The translations under genes and the position numbers were made by a program. Positions 10,760 through 50,033 of a stretch of DNA of 64,000 bases are shown piece after piece; within the stretch, counting starts at the first letter, position 1, and each line of letters starts with the position of its first letter. The notes beneath the pieces were generated by a model. That model saw nothing but the letters and a program-made list of their open reading frames with translations. It ran no database searches and had not been told where the DNA came from. The DNA lies in the NCBI GenBank assembly GCA_023511295.1, contig JAIMBT010000006.1, positions 1 to 64,000 of the forward strand. The letters run 5' to 3'. The stretch comes from Alicyclobacillus sp. Its GTDB lineage: Bacteria > Bacillota > Bacilli > Alicyclobacillales > Alicyclobacillaceae.

Positions 10760-11473
10760 TCACCGCGCCGCGGCGGGGGCAGATACGAGTTCCGCCGTCA
10801 CGATGTAGCGATAAGGCGCGGGTCCGATAAACGTGAAAGGGTAGCACGTCTGCAGGGTGAGTGTATCCGCGGTCGTCGGCTTCATCACTGCGACGTCCGT
10901 CGCAGGCACCACGCGAAACGCCACCGCCCGGTAGACGAAGTTCCCGTAGGGCGTCCCAACGACAATCCGGTCGCCCTTTTGCAGATACCGCAGGCGCGTG
11001 AACACGGTGTCTCGGTGTCCGGCGAGGTACACGTTGCCCGGCTGGCCCGGCAATGCGGTACCGGGTTGGTGCCCGACCCCCTTCGCCAGATCTGCATCTG
11101 CTGTACCCTGCAGGATGGGCACGGTCAGGTCCAGGGATGGGATATCCAGCGTCCCAATCCGCATCCCATCGGCCGGGAGTGGAGTCCACAGCGGCTTCGT
11201 CCCCACAGCAGACGGACTCGTGTCCCCCTCGCGGGTGGCCCCGCCGGACAGGCCAACCCCTAAAGCCTCCGTGCCCCCAGGTGCCGTGGCATCGGCCGCG
11301 ATGGTCTGACCCGCCACGGCGCCCGTTTCAGGCTGGTACACAGGTACCGGCTGCCGGTTCAGCCAGATGGTCTCCGAGGCGTACTGATAACCGTACACCG
11401 CGAACACGGCCATTCCCGCGACCGCTGTGACCCCAGAGATCCACAATCCCATCCATCTCCATGCGCGTCGCAT
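10760..11473 (-). CDS. Class D sortase
   Basis: 237 residues: short cytoplasmic N-terminus, one membrane helix (about residues 9-28), a long linker, then the sortase beta-barrel. Catalytic residues are His153 in YLAGHRDTVF, Cys210 in TLTLQTCYPF and Arg222 in APYRYIVTAE. GTLDIPSLDLTVPILQGTADADLAKGVGH is the typical start of class D sortase domains. The enzyme acts on the outer face of the membrane, cleaving an LPxTx-type signal and joining the protein to the cell wall. The gene lies 21 bases downstream of a gene encoding exactly such a substrate, so the pair is probably dedicated. Confidence 0.93.
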   Translation of the reverse strand: MRRAWRWMGLWISGVTAVAGMAVFAVYGYQYASETIWLNRQPVPVYQPETGAVAGQTIAADATAPGGTEALGVGLSGGATREGDTSPSAVGTKPLWTPLPADGMRIGTLDIPSLDLTVPILQGTADADLAKGVGHQPGTALPGQPGNVYLAGHRDTVFTRLRYLQKGDRIVVGTPYGNFVYRAVAFRVVPATDVAVMKPTTADTLTLQTCYPFTFIGPAPYRYIVTAELVSAPAAAR

Positions 11474-11494: not shown

Positions 11495-12295
11495 TCACGA
11501 CCGCCGCAGGCGCAGCCCAACCACCAGGCCCATGCCCCCCAACACCGCCAGCAAAGCACCCACGCCCATCCAGAGCGGCCCTCGGGTGGCAGTCTGGGGC
11601 AGCTTGTCGGCGGCCGGGCGGTTGGGGGCAGCGTGGGAAGAACCCATGCTCGTCGAAGACGACACGTGCCCGACGCTCGGCTGAGACACCGGCGCACCGG
11701 GCGAATGCGGGCTCGCGTGGCTCGGTCCGCCGCCCGAAACGGTGGTGACGACCTTCACCTCCACCTGTCCGCTGTCCGTCCCGTGGCTCGCCGCGGTCGA
11801 TCCGCTGCACACCTGGCCCACCCCCGCCTGGCCGTGCGCACTGGCGCTGCCGGCCGCACATCCGCCGGCGCTCGCGGTCCGGCTCGTTCCGACGACACAG
11901 GAGGTGGTTCCGGAGTGGGTCCGGTTCGTCGCGTTCCCACGCGGCACCGCTGTCACGCAGCCCACCGGATGCCACGTGAGCGTAGCCGGTTCACCGCACG
12001 AAACCCATCCAGACCAGCGCACGACTTGCCATCTCCGCACGTTGAGCTGGTTGTTGACGTGGCTGTTCAAATGCGCGTTCACGTGCTCGTTGACGTGGCT
12101 GTTCAAATGCGCGTTCACGTGCTCGTTGACGTGGCTGTTGACGTGCGCGTTCACGTGCTCGTTGACGTGGACATTGACGTGGGTGTGCCCGACCGCCGCA
12201 GGTGTGCAGGCGAGTGCCGACACCGGTGCGGCAGCCAGCATGCCGATACCAGCCAGAGCCGCGATGGACCCTTGGCGCAATCGAATTCCCCTCAT
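11495..12295 (-). CDS. LPXTG-type cell-wall protein with His-Val-Asn tetrad repeat
   Basis: 266 residues from the ATG at 12295 (GGAGG nine bases upstream; an ATG three codons earlier directly abuts that site). Order: signal peptide (about 1-30); twelve tetrads of form H[VL]N-x, the last reading QLNV (about 37-84); a Cys-containing middle region with scattered cysteines (CGEP, GC, SCVV, GCAAG, VCSG); a Ser/His/Gly/Pro-rich wall-spanning stretch; then a sorting signal LPQTA near 232, a hydrophobic helix and the tail RLRRS. No enzymatic family was recognised. Regularly spaced histidines suggest metal binding or a stacked beta structure (inference). The sortase gene follows by 21 bases. Confidence 0.85.
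   Translation of the reverse strand: MRGIRLRQGSIAALAGIGMLAAAPVSALACTPAAVGHTHVNVHVNEHVNAHVNSHVNEHVNAHLNSHVNEHVNAHLNSHVNNQLNVRRWQVVRWSGWVSCGEPATLTWHPVGCVTAVPRGNATNRTHSGTTSCVVGTSRTASAGGCAAGSASAHGQAGVGQVCSGSTAASHGTDSGQVEVKVVTTVSGGGPSHASPHSPGAPVSQPSVGHVSSSTSMGSSHAAPNRPAADKLPQTATRGPLWMGVGALLAVLGGMGLVVGLRLRRS
12060..12167 (-). repeat. Three tandem 36-base units inside the wall-protein gene
   Basis: The two units at 12060-12095 and 12096-12131 are identical; the third, 12132-12167, differs at a few positions. Each encodes twelve residues, i.e. three H-V/L-N-x tetrads. DNA-level identity shows recent tandem duplication, so copy number may vary between strains. Confidence 0.9.
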
Positions 12296-12327
12296 GGGCT
12301 TCATCCTCCGTGTCTATCGATGGCGAG

Positions 12328-12415
12328 GTCGATCCGGATCGACGATCACGGTCATAAGAGTCGAATGAAGCACCGTCATTTATGGGGTTGTCTACCTATT
12401 TTGGACATTTATGGG
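12328..12415 (-). promoter_or_regulatory. Promoter/operator region of the wall protein-sortase operon
   Basis: Contains a perfect 16-base palindrome (GTCGATCC/GGATCGAC, 12328-12343), a weak promoter on the minus strand (TGACGG at 12378-12373, TATGAC at 12356-12351, 16-base spacer), and two copies of CCCATAAATG on the minus strand (12377-12386 and 12406-12415), about three helical turns apart. The palindrome would sit at the transcription start, and the direct repeats overlap and precede the -35. This arrangement fits a repressor plus a direct-repeat-binding regulator (inference). Confidence 0.4.
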
Positions 12416-13144: not shown

Positions 13145-15151
13145 TTACGACGACGCCTGTGTCACGGCTTCGAGCGAATTCGCCACCCGCACCATCTGCC
13201 AGTCGCTGTACGGAGCGTTCGACTGCAGGTACTCCATGAGGACGTAGGTGCTGCCGCGCTTGAAGAACAGGAACTGGTTCACCTGACCGCGCTGGTTGGT
13301 CGTCTCGACGTAGCGCGCCGCAGACCCATCCGCGAGTTGCTCCTGGTACTGGACTTCTGGCTCACTCGGAATGTCGACAGGGTGCTTCGATTCAATCAGC
13401 CAGATGTGATTGTACACCAACCCGATAGATCCGTCGCCGTCTGTCTTGACGATGTGCAACGCGTCGTTGTCCAGGCCGAGGGTCGGCAGCCAGACCGGGA
13501 TGCCGTCGCGTTGGCCCGTCTGCCCGGCCTCCTGCAACTGGTTCGCGGTGTACGCAATCGGCGTCAAGCGACCGTTCTGCACGCCCTGTGGACTCAACAC
13601 GAACTGGTAGATCAGCGACCAATTGGCCCCGCCGTCCACCGTCGCAAAGACATCCGCAAACCGGTTGTCCGCGCGGGTGACCAACCAACCCTGCTGGTCG
13701 TTCACAAAGGAGATGGCGCCAAAGCTGCCTGGGAATCCGTCCGGTCCATTCTGCCAGTGCACCCCGTCCCCGGTTCGTCCGGTCGAGACAATCCCGTACG
13801 GCCCCGTCGGCAGAGACACCCCCGCCTCGAAGGCGTGTCCTTCATCCACCACGTCGATGTCGTCCGCCACCAGCCCTGGTCCGGCTGTTGCCGGCCCGGC
13901 GTTCGGCACGCCAGGAGCCGGTCCACCGCCAGCGGTGGCATTGGCGACCGGTGTGCTCCAGGTGGCCCCGGCGTCGGCCGAATGGAACAGGGTATACCCT
14001 TCCTGCATCATCCCGTAGCCACCAATCACCTGTACCCAGATGTCCCTTGGCGTGTCCATCCACACCTGCCCGGTCACGTCGTTCTGGGTCGACTTCTGCA
14101 ACACGGTCTGCCACGTCGCCCCGCCGTCGGATGTCCGCTCCATCTGAAACTGCGTGCCGCCGGACACCAGCGCGGTGCCGTGGCCTGCGTCTGCGTAAGC
14201 GACGGCGGTCGCACCTTTCGGAACCGGCAACGCGCGCCAGTGCTGGCCCCCGTCCGTCGTCTCATACGCCGCCGCAGGCACCGCTGACGCGCCGGTCATC
14301 TCCGCCGTGGTACCACTGAGAAAGACGAATCCGGTGCGCGCATCGAGGAACCGGATTTGTACCTGTTGCCCGGATTGCAGGGCCCCCGGGAGCGCGTCGG
14401 CAGCGCTGGCCGGCGTCACCTTCTGCCAGGAGCGTCCCCCGTCCGACGTTTGCCACAACGCCAAGCCGGATGCCCCGCTGCCGGCCGCCGTCATCAGGGC
14501 GAACCCCGTGTCGCGGTTGACGAAGTCGACCCGGAGGATGGTCTGTGCCGACGTCTGGTACACCTCTGCCCAACGGCGCCCACCGTCCGACGTGGCGTAG
14601 ATCTGGTTGGGGCCAACCAGCCACCCGTGCGCGGAATCGACGAACTGCACCGCATCCGGTGCGAATCCAGGAGCGTTCTGCAGCGGGTACGCCGCGGTCT
14701 GCCCGCCACCCGCCACGAGGCTCCAGCCAGCAGCTGGCGAGCGGGTTCCGCCCACCCCGTTTCCAGTCTCTCCTATGGAACCGGCCTCCGGGGTGTGGGT
14801 GGGATTCGATCCGCTCCCACGCCCATCCTGGCTACCGCTGGCGGCCGCTCCGCTGGTCCCACCCGCGGTGTTGGCGCCAGCCTGGTTCGCCGGCCCTGCC
14901 GTCGACGCCGCACCACCTCCGCGTCCCTCGCTGGTAGGACCGCTCTGTGCGTTGGCATCCGCCGAGCTGGCGGTCTGATGGGCCGGCGCCTCAGCGTTCG
15001 CCGTGTGACTGGCCCCGCAACCCGCAAGCAGCGCACTCCCCGTGAGTGCAAGGGTGGCCGTCCACCACGCTGCGCGGTGTCGAGGGCGCCGACGGCGCAT
15101 GCCCGTCCGGCGCTGTGAACGCGGTGTCTCCGTGTTGTCCGTTCGTCCCAT
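13145..15151 (-). CDS. Large lipoprotein with Ycf48/BNR-type beta-propeller repeats
   Basis: 668 residues from the ATG at 15151 (GGAGGGG eight bases upstream). A basic N-terminus leads to a lipobox, LTGSALLAGC, so the mature protein should be lipid-anchored outside the membrane. A low-complexity Ala/Gly/Ser linker follows, then repeated propeller strands marked by TSDGGRRW, TSDGGRSW, TTDGGQHW, TSDGGATW, SADAGATW and TVDGGANW, the pattern of sialidase-like BNR and Ycf48 propellers. The last 150 residues are not repetitive. The binding partner or function is unknown; a scaffold or sensor at the cell surface is plausible. Confidence 0.82.
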   Translation of the reverse strand: MGRTDNTETPRSQRRTGMRRRRPRHRAAWWTATLALTGSALLAGCGASHTANAEAPAHQTASSADANAQSGPTSEGRGGGAASTAGPANQAGANTAGGTSGAAASGSQDGRGSGSNPTHTPEAGSIGETGNGVGGTRSPAAGWSLVAGGGQTAAYPLQNAPGFAPDAVQFVDSAHGWLVGPNQIYATSDGGRRWAEVYQTSAQTILRVDFVNRDTGFALMTAAGSGASGLALWQTSDGGRSWQKVTPASAADALPGALQSGQQVQIRFLDARTGFVFLSGTTAEMTGASAVPAAAYETTDGGQHWRALPVPKGATAVAYADAGHGTALVSGGTQFQMERTSDGGATWQTVLQKSTQNDVTGQVWMDTPRDIWVQVIGGYGMMQEGYTLFHSADAGATWSTPVANATAGGGPAPGVPNAGPATAGPGLVADDIDVVDEGHAFEAGVSLPTGPYGIVSTGRTGDGVHWQNGPDGFPGSFGAISFVNDQQGWLVTRADNRFADVFATVDGGANWSLIYQFVLSPQGVQNGRLTPIAYTANQLQEAGQTGQRDGIPVWLPTLGLDNDALHIVKTDGDGSIGLVYNHIWLIESKHPVDIPSEPEVQYQEQLADGSAARYVETTNQRGQVNQFLFFKRGSTYVLMEYLQSNAPYSDWQMVRVANSLEAVTQASS

Positions 15152-15305
15152 TGGTTCGCCCCTCCATCGATGCATGACGATGACTCGTGGCCACGTCGTC
15201 TCGTATATCCCTTCTGACGTTGACGCGGTCCCTTTCGTTTCACCGAACAGACGGGACAGAGCCGCGGCGGCCAACCGGCGCATCTCGAAGGCCCCGTCGA
15301 CGGGG

Positions 15306-46336: not shown

Positions 46337-49300
46337 GTCTTAGTCCACGCCCGCGCACGGCGGGCGACGTTAGCGCGGGTAACGTCTTTAGTCCTAGGAG
46401 TACGGGTTTCAATCCACGCCCGCGCACGGCGGGCGACCACCAAAAAGGACAAAAGTCCTAGGCAACCAAGACCGTTTCAATCCACGCCCGCGCACGGCGG
46501 GCGACCTCAGCGAGGATGGATGCTTCTTCGGCCTCTGTGATGTTTCAATCCACGCCCGCGCACGGCGGGCGACCCGGCGGGTGAGGATCAGGTGCTCAAG
46601 CTCGCCGAGTTTCAATCCACGCCCGCGCACGGCGGGCGACTCCGGCGGCATCCGGATTCTCAGCAAGCACATGGGAGTTTCAATCCACGCCCGCGCACGG
46701 CGGGCGACGGTGTCCGTGTTGTGGTGCCCGATCACGGTGTCCATGTTTCAATCCACGCCCGCGCACGGCGGGCGACGCAGTTGTCGGCCCGAGCTAGGTC
46801 ACACATACTGGTTTCAATCCACGCCCGCGCACGGCGGGCGACAACGCCCGTAGAATTCGCCGACGAAATGCATGTGTTTCAATCCACGCCCGCGCACGGC
46901 GGGCGACCGCCCACAATTGTTTAGCGTCCATCCCGCATACCTGTTTCAATCCACGCCCGCGCACGGCGGGCGACGAGGGAAAGCCGGTTACGAATAACCA
47001 CCCACCGGAAATGTTTCAATCCACGCCCGCGCACGGCGGGCGACACGCCGACTGACTGTCGCCCGGGGCCGGGTCGCTGTTTCAATCCACGCCCGCGCAC
47101 GGCGGGCGACATGGACGTATGACTTTGTCAACATACACATGCAAGTTTCAATCCACGCCCGCGCACGGCGGGCGACGAGTGCTTTTTGCATACAAGAACT
47201 ACCTCCCAAAGTTTCAATCCACGCCCGCGCACGGCGGGCGACGAATCGCCGGCCCGAAAAGTGGCGCGACAAGCAGGTTTCAATCCACGCCCGCGCACGG
47301 CGGGCGACGAATCGCCGGCCCGACAAGTGGCGCGACAAGCAGGTTTCAATCCACGCCCGCGCACGGCGGGCGACACTGCGTGGTTCGTATTCGATAGTAC
47401 AGGGCGACGTTTCAATCCACGCCCGCGCACGGCGGGCGACGTAGATACTGCGATTAAGATCGCGCGTGTGCTAGGTTTCAATCCACGCCCGCGCACGGCG
47501 GGCGACCGTTGGTGCGATGGGGGCAGGTGTCTACGACGAGGTGTTTCAATCCACGCCCGCGCACGGCGGGCGACTGTGACCGTCGCCAACAACTTTCGTC
47601 TCTCCTGTGTTTCAATCCACGCCCGCGCACGGCGGGCGACTTGTAGACACGTTCGACCCACGCCCAAAGCTCTGGTTTCAATCCACGCCCGCGCACGGCG
47701 GGCGACCAAGGCGTCCGTGATCTGCAGGCTTTGGTCCGTGTTTCAATCCACGCCCGCGCACGGCGGGCGACTGTTGTCGCCGACGATGGGTTGCCCATTC
47801 TTTGTGTTTCAATCCACGCCCGCGCACGGCGGGCGACGCTTTTGGCAGGTATCAATCGGGTTCACGTTTTGGGTTTCAATCCACGCCCGCGCACGGCGGG
47901 CGACGCGCGACGAAGGCGGCTGCGTCGTCTACGACATGTTTCAATCCACGCCCGCGCACGGCGGGCGACATCTTGATCGCGCTTTGTATCTGGGGGATCA
48001 CAGCAAAGTTTCAATCCACGCCCGCGCACGGCGGGCGACCGTGGCGCGTTCGTTCATCCTCGCGGGTATCGACGTTTCAATCCACGCCCGCGCACGGCGG
48101 GCGACTGGACCATCGAGCCACAGCGACCCGTAGCCGCCCGTTTCAATCCACGCCCGCGCACGGCGGGCGACGGCTGCTACATATATACGACGCCACAAGG
48201 GGGGCACGTTTCAATCCACGCCCGCGCACGGCGGGCGACTACCCACCGAGACATCTCTGTCGACCCTGCTAATGTTTCAATCCACGCCCGCGCACGGCGG
48301 GCGACCTTCAGAGCGTCAGCAGTGGGCGGGACTGATACAGTTTCAATCCACGCCCGCGCACGGCGGGCGACAGACATGAGTGGCGTAGGCAATAAACGCA
48401 CACGAGTTTCAATCCACGCCCGCGCACGGCGGGCGACGATGGACCGGACGATCCTTGTCCGCGTGGAGTCGGGGTTTCAATCCACGCCCGCGCACGGCGG
48501 GCGACAAGGCCCGGATCGCACAGGCACGAGCACAGGCAGTTTCAATCCACGCCCGCGCACGGCGGGCGACGCCTGAAGCACCAGTCGGTAGTGGTCGTCA
48601 TCGAGTTTCAATCCACGCCCGCGCACGGCGGGCGACAGTGGATGTGCCGAAACTCATCTTGGTCGTACTCGTTTCAATCCACGCCCGCGCACGGCGGGCG
48701 ACGGCTGTCCTTCATAACTGTCTCAATACGGGTCTTTGAGTTTCAATCCACGCCCGCGCACGGCGGGCGACTAGTGGTACGCCCTTATAGCTTGCCAGCA
48801 GGTGGTTTCAATCCACGCCCGCGCACGGCGGGCGACCTTGACGGCAACGGGCGCAACCGTCTTCGTCGATGTTTCAATCCACGCCCGCGCACGGCGGGCG
48901 ACGCGCGTATTGCTCGCACTGGCCGACCAGATCAACGAGTTTCAATCCACGCCCGCGCACGGCGGGCGACCGGTCCGCCGGATGAGTCCGTCGCGTTCTG
49001 GATGTTTCAATCCACGCCCGCGCACGGCGGGCGACGGAGGTGCGAGGAGATGTTCTGTAAGGTCTGCGGGTTTCAATCCACGCCCGCGCACGGCGGGCGA
49101 CCATCCACGACCTCACGTTTCCGGTGTGGGTGGCGCAGTTTCAATCCACGCCCGCGCACGGCGGGCGACGTTTGAACGCGGAAGCGACCGGGGATGTTGG
49201 TCTTGTTTCAATCCACGCCCGCGCACGGCGGGCGACGTCGGTAGCGGGCCGTCCGCAGACGTTGCGCCGGGTTTCAATCCACGCCCGCGCACGGCGGGCG

Positions 49301-50033
49301 ACCGCCGTCACAGTAAGATTAGCGCTGGACGCATTTTGTTTCAATCCACGCCCGCGCACGGCGGGCGACTTTCCATTTTCGCGCACCAACCGGGGATACC
49401 ACGGTTTCAATCCACGCCCGCGCACGGCGGGCGACTGGGGACAGGGACAGGCACAAAGACAGGGATAGGTTTCAATCCACGCCCGCGCACGGCGGGCGAC
49501 GTCATTTCTTGCATACAGATCCGTTACATATTCTGGGTTTCAATCCACGCCCGCGCACGGCGGGCGACTTGTGGGTGTAACTGGTGGCGTGGCCGTGATG
49601 TGTTTCAATCCACGCCCGCGCACGGCGGGCGACCGAAACGATGACGATTGGCGTCACTACTTTACGTCGTTTCAATCCACGCCCGCGCACGGCGGGCGAC
49701 CACCGTCGCATCGTCTGACTGGAGTAGCTGCACCTGTTTCAATCCACGCCCGCGCACGGCGGGCGACTTTCTTGCGGTCGTGGGTGCGCAGCGTTGCGTG
49801 GTTTCAATCCACGCCCGCGCACGGCGGGCGACCAGGTACGCCTGACCCGCAGCGCTACGATAGGCCCGTTTCAATCCACGCCCGCGCACGGCGGGCGACG
49901 TTAACTAGAAGACTCACCCGACACACACGTGGCGTTTCAATCCACGCCCGCGCACGGCGGGCGACTGCGTGGGTGTATAGTCGCGCTACCATTGGTTCGC
50001 CGTTTCAATCCACGCCCGCGCACGGCGGGCGAC
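46337..50033 (-). CRISPR. Type I-C CRISPR array, 56 repeats and 55 spacers
   Basis: The repeat is 32 bases; on the transcribed (minus) strand it begins GTCGCCCGCC and ends GTGGATTGAAAC, the type I-C consensus, with a 6-base GC stem (GCCCGC/GCGGGC) around a 5-base loop. All inspected copies are identical except the last, 46337-46368, which has three changes at the spacer-proximal end (GTCTTAGTCC on the plus strand), marking the leader-distal terminus. Spacers are 33-38 bases, mostly 34. The newest spacers are at the 50,033 end, next to cas2. Spacers 47243-47276 and 47309-47342 differ by one base. Confidence 0.99.

Follow-up and report, generated by a model that had tools for sequence, protein, structure and literature searches.

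LPxTA-bearing substrates of adjoining class D sortases have been described (PMC3617157; PMC3297441), and those known are mostly enzymes, adhesin-like proteins or small acidic proteins; none of the substrates covered in the papers cited here is described as having repeats of His-Val-Asn (HVN) tetrads (PMC3617157, PMC3297441, PMC4498605). The locus analyzed here, in a genome of the family Alicyclobacillaceae, resembles the pairs known from B. cellulosilyticus (LPXTA proteins) and Bacillus anthracis (BasI-SrtC) in the adjacency of the two genes, the LPxTAT-type signal, and the membrane segment and basic tail. The form LPXTATR is listed for Bcell_0381 (PMC4498605/PMC3617157/PMC3297441).

The substrate gene and its class D sortase

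The window (the whole stretch of DNA analyzed, 64,000 nucleotides) carries the gene for the HVN-repeat protein at 11495..12295 on the reverse strand, where all features of the pair described below also lie. It encodes 266 aa plus a stop codon, and its GC content by codon position fits a coding sequence. Because a Shine-Dalgarno sequence, GGAGG (12305..12309), sits 9 nt before the ATG at 12295, this start is preferred to that of a longer ORF at 12304. The predicted signal peptide (12209..12295) has, by eye, a basic start, a hydrophobic core and a cleavage site between SALA and C that follows the AxA rule, with a poor lipobox. Next come the repeat region (12038..12181), a segment containing five Cys (11801..12037; a sixth Cys is the predicted first residue of the mature protein), a low-complexity Ser/Thr/Gly/Pro/His linker (11603..11800), the LPQTA sorting motif (LPQTATR, 11588..11602), and a hydrophobic membrane segment with an RLRR tail (11498..11587), where AlphaFold places a helix at residues 243-265. 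Re-reading of the sequence upheld the ORF, coordinates and layout given in the initial annotation, including the Cys-containing segment and LPQTA anchor downstream of the repeat.

The gene for the sortase, SrtD (10760..11473), begins 21 bases past the substrate stop codon, and its assignment to class D is supported by a score of 163.5 bits to NF058671, the model for LPxTATN-specific class D sortases (cut-off 140); the score to the generic class D model NF033746 is 153.3 bits, under the cut-off of 165. The Sortase domain is full length, the catalytic motifs AGHRDT (His), LTLQTC (Cys) and APYRY (Arg) are all present, and the solved structure closest in sequence is sortase 2ln7. In the substrate, the LPxTx motif, hydrophobic segment and basic tail (LPQTATR...RLRRS) are complete, and matches to curated models are weak: 17.6 bits to Gram_pos_anchor (cut-off 20) and, for the LPxTATN model NF058670 (cut-off 32), 15.3 bits, or 19.6 in the genome search. 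When the whole genome was scanned for LPxTATN signals, the HVN-repeat gene gave the one credible site (E 0.006), all others being at 0.55 or worse, so the sortase can fairly be called dedicated, as originally proposed; the conservation of the substrate-SrtD pair in the family agrees with this. From adjacency and motif, SrtD is predicted to act on the LPxTA substrate, and anchoring of the HVN-repeat protein to the wall by SrtD appears well supported.

Upstream of the substrate gene, the direct repeat CCCATAAATG occurs on the reverse strand at 12406..12415 and, 29 nt from this first copy, at 12377..12386. The pair (12377-12415) is a possible operator, and the repeats were absent from the upstream regions of the ten relatives checked. 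A simple consensus search upstream of the gene found neither sporulation nor sigma-A promoter sequences. A 712-aa YCF48-like/BNR-repeat protein is encoded on the same strand at 13145-15283, beside a VTT-domain gene, and a large CRISPR-like array with the 32-base repeat GTTTCAATCCACGCCCGCGCACGGCGGGCGAC occupies 46474-49899. A second sortase-like protein, of 426 aa, is encoded on contig C12 of the genome (L197, G000:C12:16500-26500) and lies beside a secreted protein that by eye is SGNH-like and ends in LPVRM and a hydrophobic tail.

The HVN tetrad repeat

The tetrads run in the order HVNV, HVNE, HVNA, HVNS, HVNE, HVNA, HLNS, HVNE, HVNA, HLNS, HVNN, QLNV, so that the twelve His-Val-Asn tetrads reported initially were a slight overcount: eleven are exact to the pattern H[VL]N-x and the last, QLNV, is degenerate. 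The recent 36-base tandem duplications said to encode them were recovered by Tandem Repeats Finder as a 36-base unit at 12053-12170 (3.3 copies, 96% matches, score 215). Among the tetrads, the codons for H, V and N vary mostly at silent positions (CAC/CAT, GTC/GTG, AAC/AAT), the non-silent changes being one V-to-L change and the Q of the last tetrad, and the fourth codon varies freely (GTC, GAG, GCG, AGC, AAC). This pattern suggests that the repeat is maintained as protein and is not a chance DNA repeat.

No family for the repeat was found in Pfam or NCBIfam, and Pfam matches at E-values up to 1 consisted of Gram_pos_anchor alone. A DNA pattern of four tetrads retrieved at least 116 stretches in 85,000 species. 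The idea that HVN tetrads form a widespread family was rejected, as the stretches listed, when read in frame, appear to be unrelated proteins or shadow frames of simple repeats in the DNA, and no SrtD-linked wall protein was recognized among the tetrad matches listed from these species. Apart from LPxT anchor tails, a protein search of 151 genomes returned low-complexity matches, which were likewise set aside. The only PDB sequence to match the repeat was the pyridoxal kinase 6su9, with long HMNG tetrads. The claim that the repeat belongs to no described family thus holds across Pfam, NCBIfam and the 85,000-species DNA-pattern search, but the type of tetrad is not unique, given the HMNG stretch in this solved kinase.

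Substrates of SrtD in the Alicyclobacillaceae

About 15 of the 40 other Alicyclobacillaceae genomes have a close SrtD gene, several genomes being without one, and in the tree these close SrtDs form a clade separate from those of other families in the class. When the DNA ahead of SrtD is intact, the preceding gene mostly encodes a secreted protein that ends in LPxT(A/S)T, a transmembrane segment and an Arg tail; G013 is without such a gene immediately upstream of SrtD, and several of the family SrtDs lie at contig edges. The exposed parts of these substrates are wholly different, while the anchor and SrtD are retained. The substrate-SrtD pair is, then, conserved in the family while the repeat turns over, and the exposed part has the appearance of a quickly evolving tandem-repeat array. 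Most intact substrates are built from repeats of Gly and Ser (VN-x-LSSGGSASG, GST, GTT); they lack Cys and contain hardly any His. Those of G032 and G026 (L192, L193) contain very long stretches of GST/GTT triplet repeats, and the substrate ORF of G006 has just 94 aa, with almost nothing ahead of the anchor. Outside the Alicyclobacillaceae, the readable substrates next to SrtD have few His.

Two substrates, in G021 and G039, are of a His/Asn-rich type like the HVN-repeat protein. In G021, SNAHSE hexads precede a His-rich stretch containing HVN, and in G039 the hexads are SNTHTT. Composition was counted in seven substrates: the mature part of the three His-type proteins contains 7.4-10% His and 4-5 Cys as counted, whereas the four Gly/Ser-type proteins lack Cys and do not exceed 0.7% His. 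The pair N-x-H occurs 10, 11 and 8 times in the HVN-repeat protein, G021 and G039, respectively, compared with 1.4-2.1 expected (0/2000 shuffles), and this common core sits in repeats of even period, 4 in the former and 6 in G021 and G039. Across 398 genomes of the class, N-[AT]-H hexads were confined to the genes paired with SrtD in G021 and G039 and to one 9-base simple repeat in G036, and relaxing the N-x-H pattern within the family added only unrelated repeats. Outside the anchor, no significant similarity was detected between the HVN-repeat protein and the G021 substrate. The three His-type SrtDs could not be shown to form a single clade (p-AU 0.0125 against one, with the untypable G012 included, the G012 substrate lying off the contig and the group having been chosen after seeing the data). 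On both counts, the shared N-x-H core may be convergent, although it may also be ancestral. The SrtD gene of G039 (L183:5834-6439) breaks off just ahead of the codon for the catalytic Cys, overlapping a convergent gene that by eye is TatC-like; its shortening may be natural or may stem from an error in assembly.

Possible roles of the exposed repeat and comparison with known systems

Four readings of the exposed part were weighed, and these are not all mutually exclusive. The one preferred here, though tentatively, is a SrtD-anchored wall protein in which the N-x-H repeats and Cys act as binding sites for metal ions or protons. By analogy with known sortase biology, the signal peptide would direct export, and SrtD would cleave LPQTA between Thr and Ala and join the product to peptidoglycan. 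Held out by the linker, the His/Asn repeat at the N-terminus and the Cys segment would then reach the wall surface or extend past it. In this genus and two others, the exposed array would have become rich in His, Asn and Cys around the N-x-H core, and its His and Cys could serve to bind or buffer protons or ions of transition metals (Zn, Cu, Ni). The ligand, expression and physiological role of the protein are matters we can only infer. Metal binding, which the initial annotation also suggested, is favored by the co-occurrence of His and Cys in all three His-type substrates. None of the genes adjoining the pair (MFS, VTT/DedA, YCF48-like BNR) is a metal gene, and as a clue to metals the neighbors were discarded, not being conserved in G021 or G039. 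Alicyclobacillaceae are largely acidophiles, and His is protonated at low pH and is then a poor metal binder, which would favor a proton or charge role over metal. A broader proposal, that the exposed end switches between inert Gly/Ser repeats and a His/Asn/Cys form whose N-x-H code is either ancient or convergent, constituting a previously undescribed wall-bound metal or proton buffer, we regard as somewhat unlikely. If the His/Asn repeats do bind metal or sense pH, they would represent a small coat, genetically encoded and active toward metal or pH, on bacteria whose family is noted for tolerating acid and heat, and would provide a natural set of even-period His repeats for comparison. Even otherwise, the locus presents a sortase D substrate whose exposed part is rewritten fast while the anchor and enzyme stay.

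The complete turnover of the repeat between genera, around an anchor and SrtD that stay, would also be expected of a passive spacer, that is, a neutral low-complexity stalk arising from tandem duplication, like the Gly/Ser of relatives, with its His and Asn incidental. The 94-aa ORF of G006, nearly without an exposed part, fits this, as do the tetrad-like arrays that many genomes contain as chance shadow frames in tandem DNA and the HMNG tetrads in an unrelated kinase. However, H and N are held through silent changes while position four varies, N-x-H recurs beside SrtD in three lineages, and His accompanies Cys, which together make a mere stalk doubtful.

The repeat could also form a beta-strand or amyloid-like surface layer, with H and N on one face, V and the variable residue on the other, and repeats of different molecules stacking into a coat in the manner of the wall-anchored chaplins of Streptomyces. 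An extended strand is favored by the strict polar/nonpolar alternation (the hydrophobic moment has its maximum, 2.55, at 180 degrees and a low value, 0.19, at 100 degrees) and by the periods of 4 and 6, both even, which in all three lineages place N and H on the same face of a strand. The variable face carries Glu and Ser, however, and so is not fully hydrophobic, and no chaplin domain was matched in Pfam at E up to 1. In place of the beta surface suggested in the initial annotation, AlphaFold without an alignment, a mode unreliable for repeats, gave a single helix across the repeat (pLDDT about 74-89). Outside this helix the model was poor (mean pLDDT 48-49), and it was left unused for fold searches. 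A layer of this kind is a serious contender, if a less likely one.

The Alicyclobacillaceae form spores, and SrtD might attach the protein to mother-cell or forespore peptidoglycan as a sporulation-stage envelope protein. This reading, which draws on the anchoring of BasI and BasH of B. anthracis during sporulation by a class D sortase with LPxTA specificity (PMC3297441, PMC4498605), is improbable, as the simple consensus search gave no sporulation sigma-factor promoter pattern upstream of the gene, class D sortases elsewhere act on enzymes of vegetative cells (PMC3617157), and a close SrtD is absent from several genomes of the family.

Compared with known systems, the proposed metal- or proton-binding wall protein recalls the poly-histidine triad (Pht) proteins of streptococci, which are displayed on the surface, carry a His motif, bind Zn and aid its uptake and, to our knowledge, are not anchored by a SrtD. 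In the kinase 6su9, which we take to be a malaria parasite protein, the H-hydrophobic-N-x tetrads are alike (best stretch i-Evalue 8.8e-6, with strong composition bias), but this enzyme is unrelated to the HVN-repeat protein and the likeness is evidently one of convergent low complexity. The Pht motif is HxxHxH (PMC9331361), which differs from the HxxxH spacing of the HVN repeat (H-H distance 4); the sequences are unrelated, and no Pfam or NCBIfam match places the HVN-repeat protein with the triad proteins. Long chaplins are sortase-anchored and have Cys pairs and beta domains (PMC13251363). Within the family, the Gly/Ser-repeat substrates (for example those of G026, G007 and G016) share the operon position, the anchor and the orthologous SrtD clade and differ in their repeats and in having almost no His and no Cys. 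The substrates of G021 and G039 share a Cys close to the start of the mature protein, repeats with N-x-H, additional Cys, an LPxTAT anchor and an adjoining SrtD, and differ in carrying SNAHSE and SNTHTT hexads in place of HVNx.
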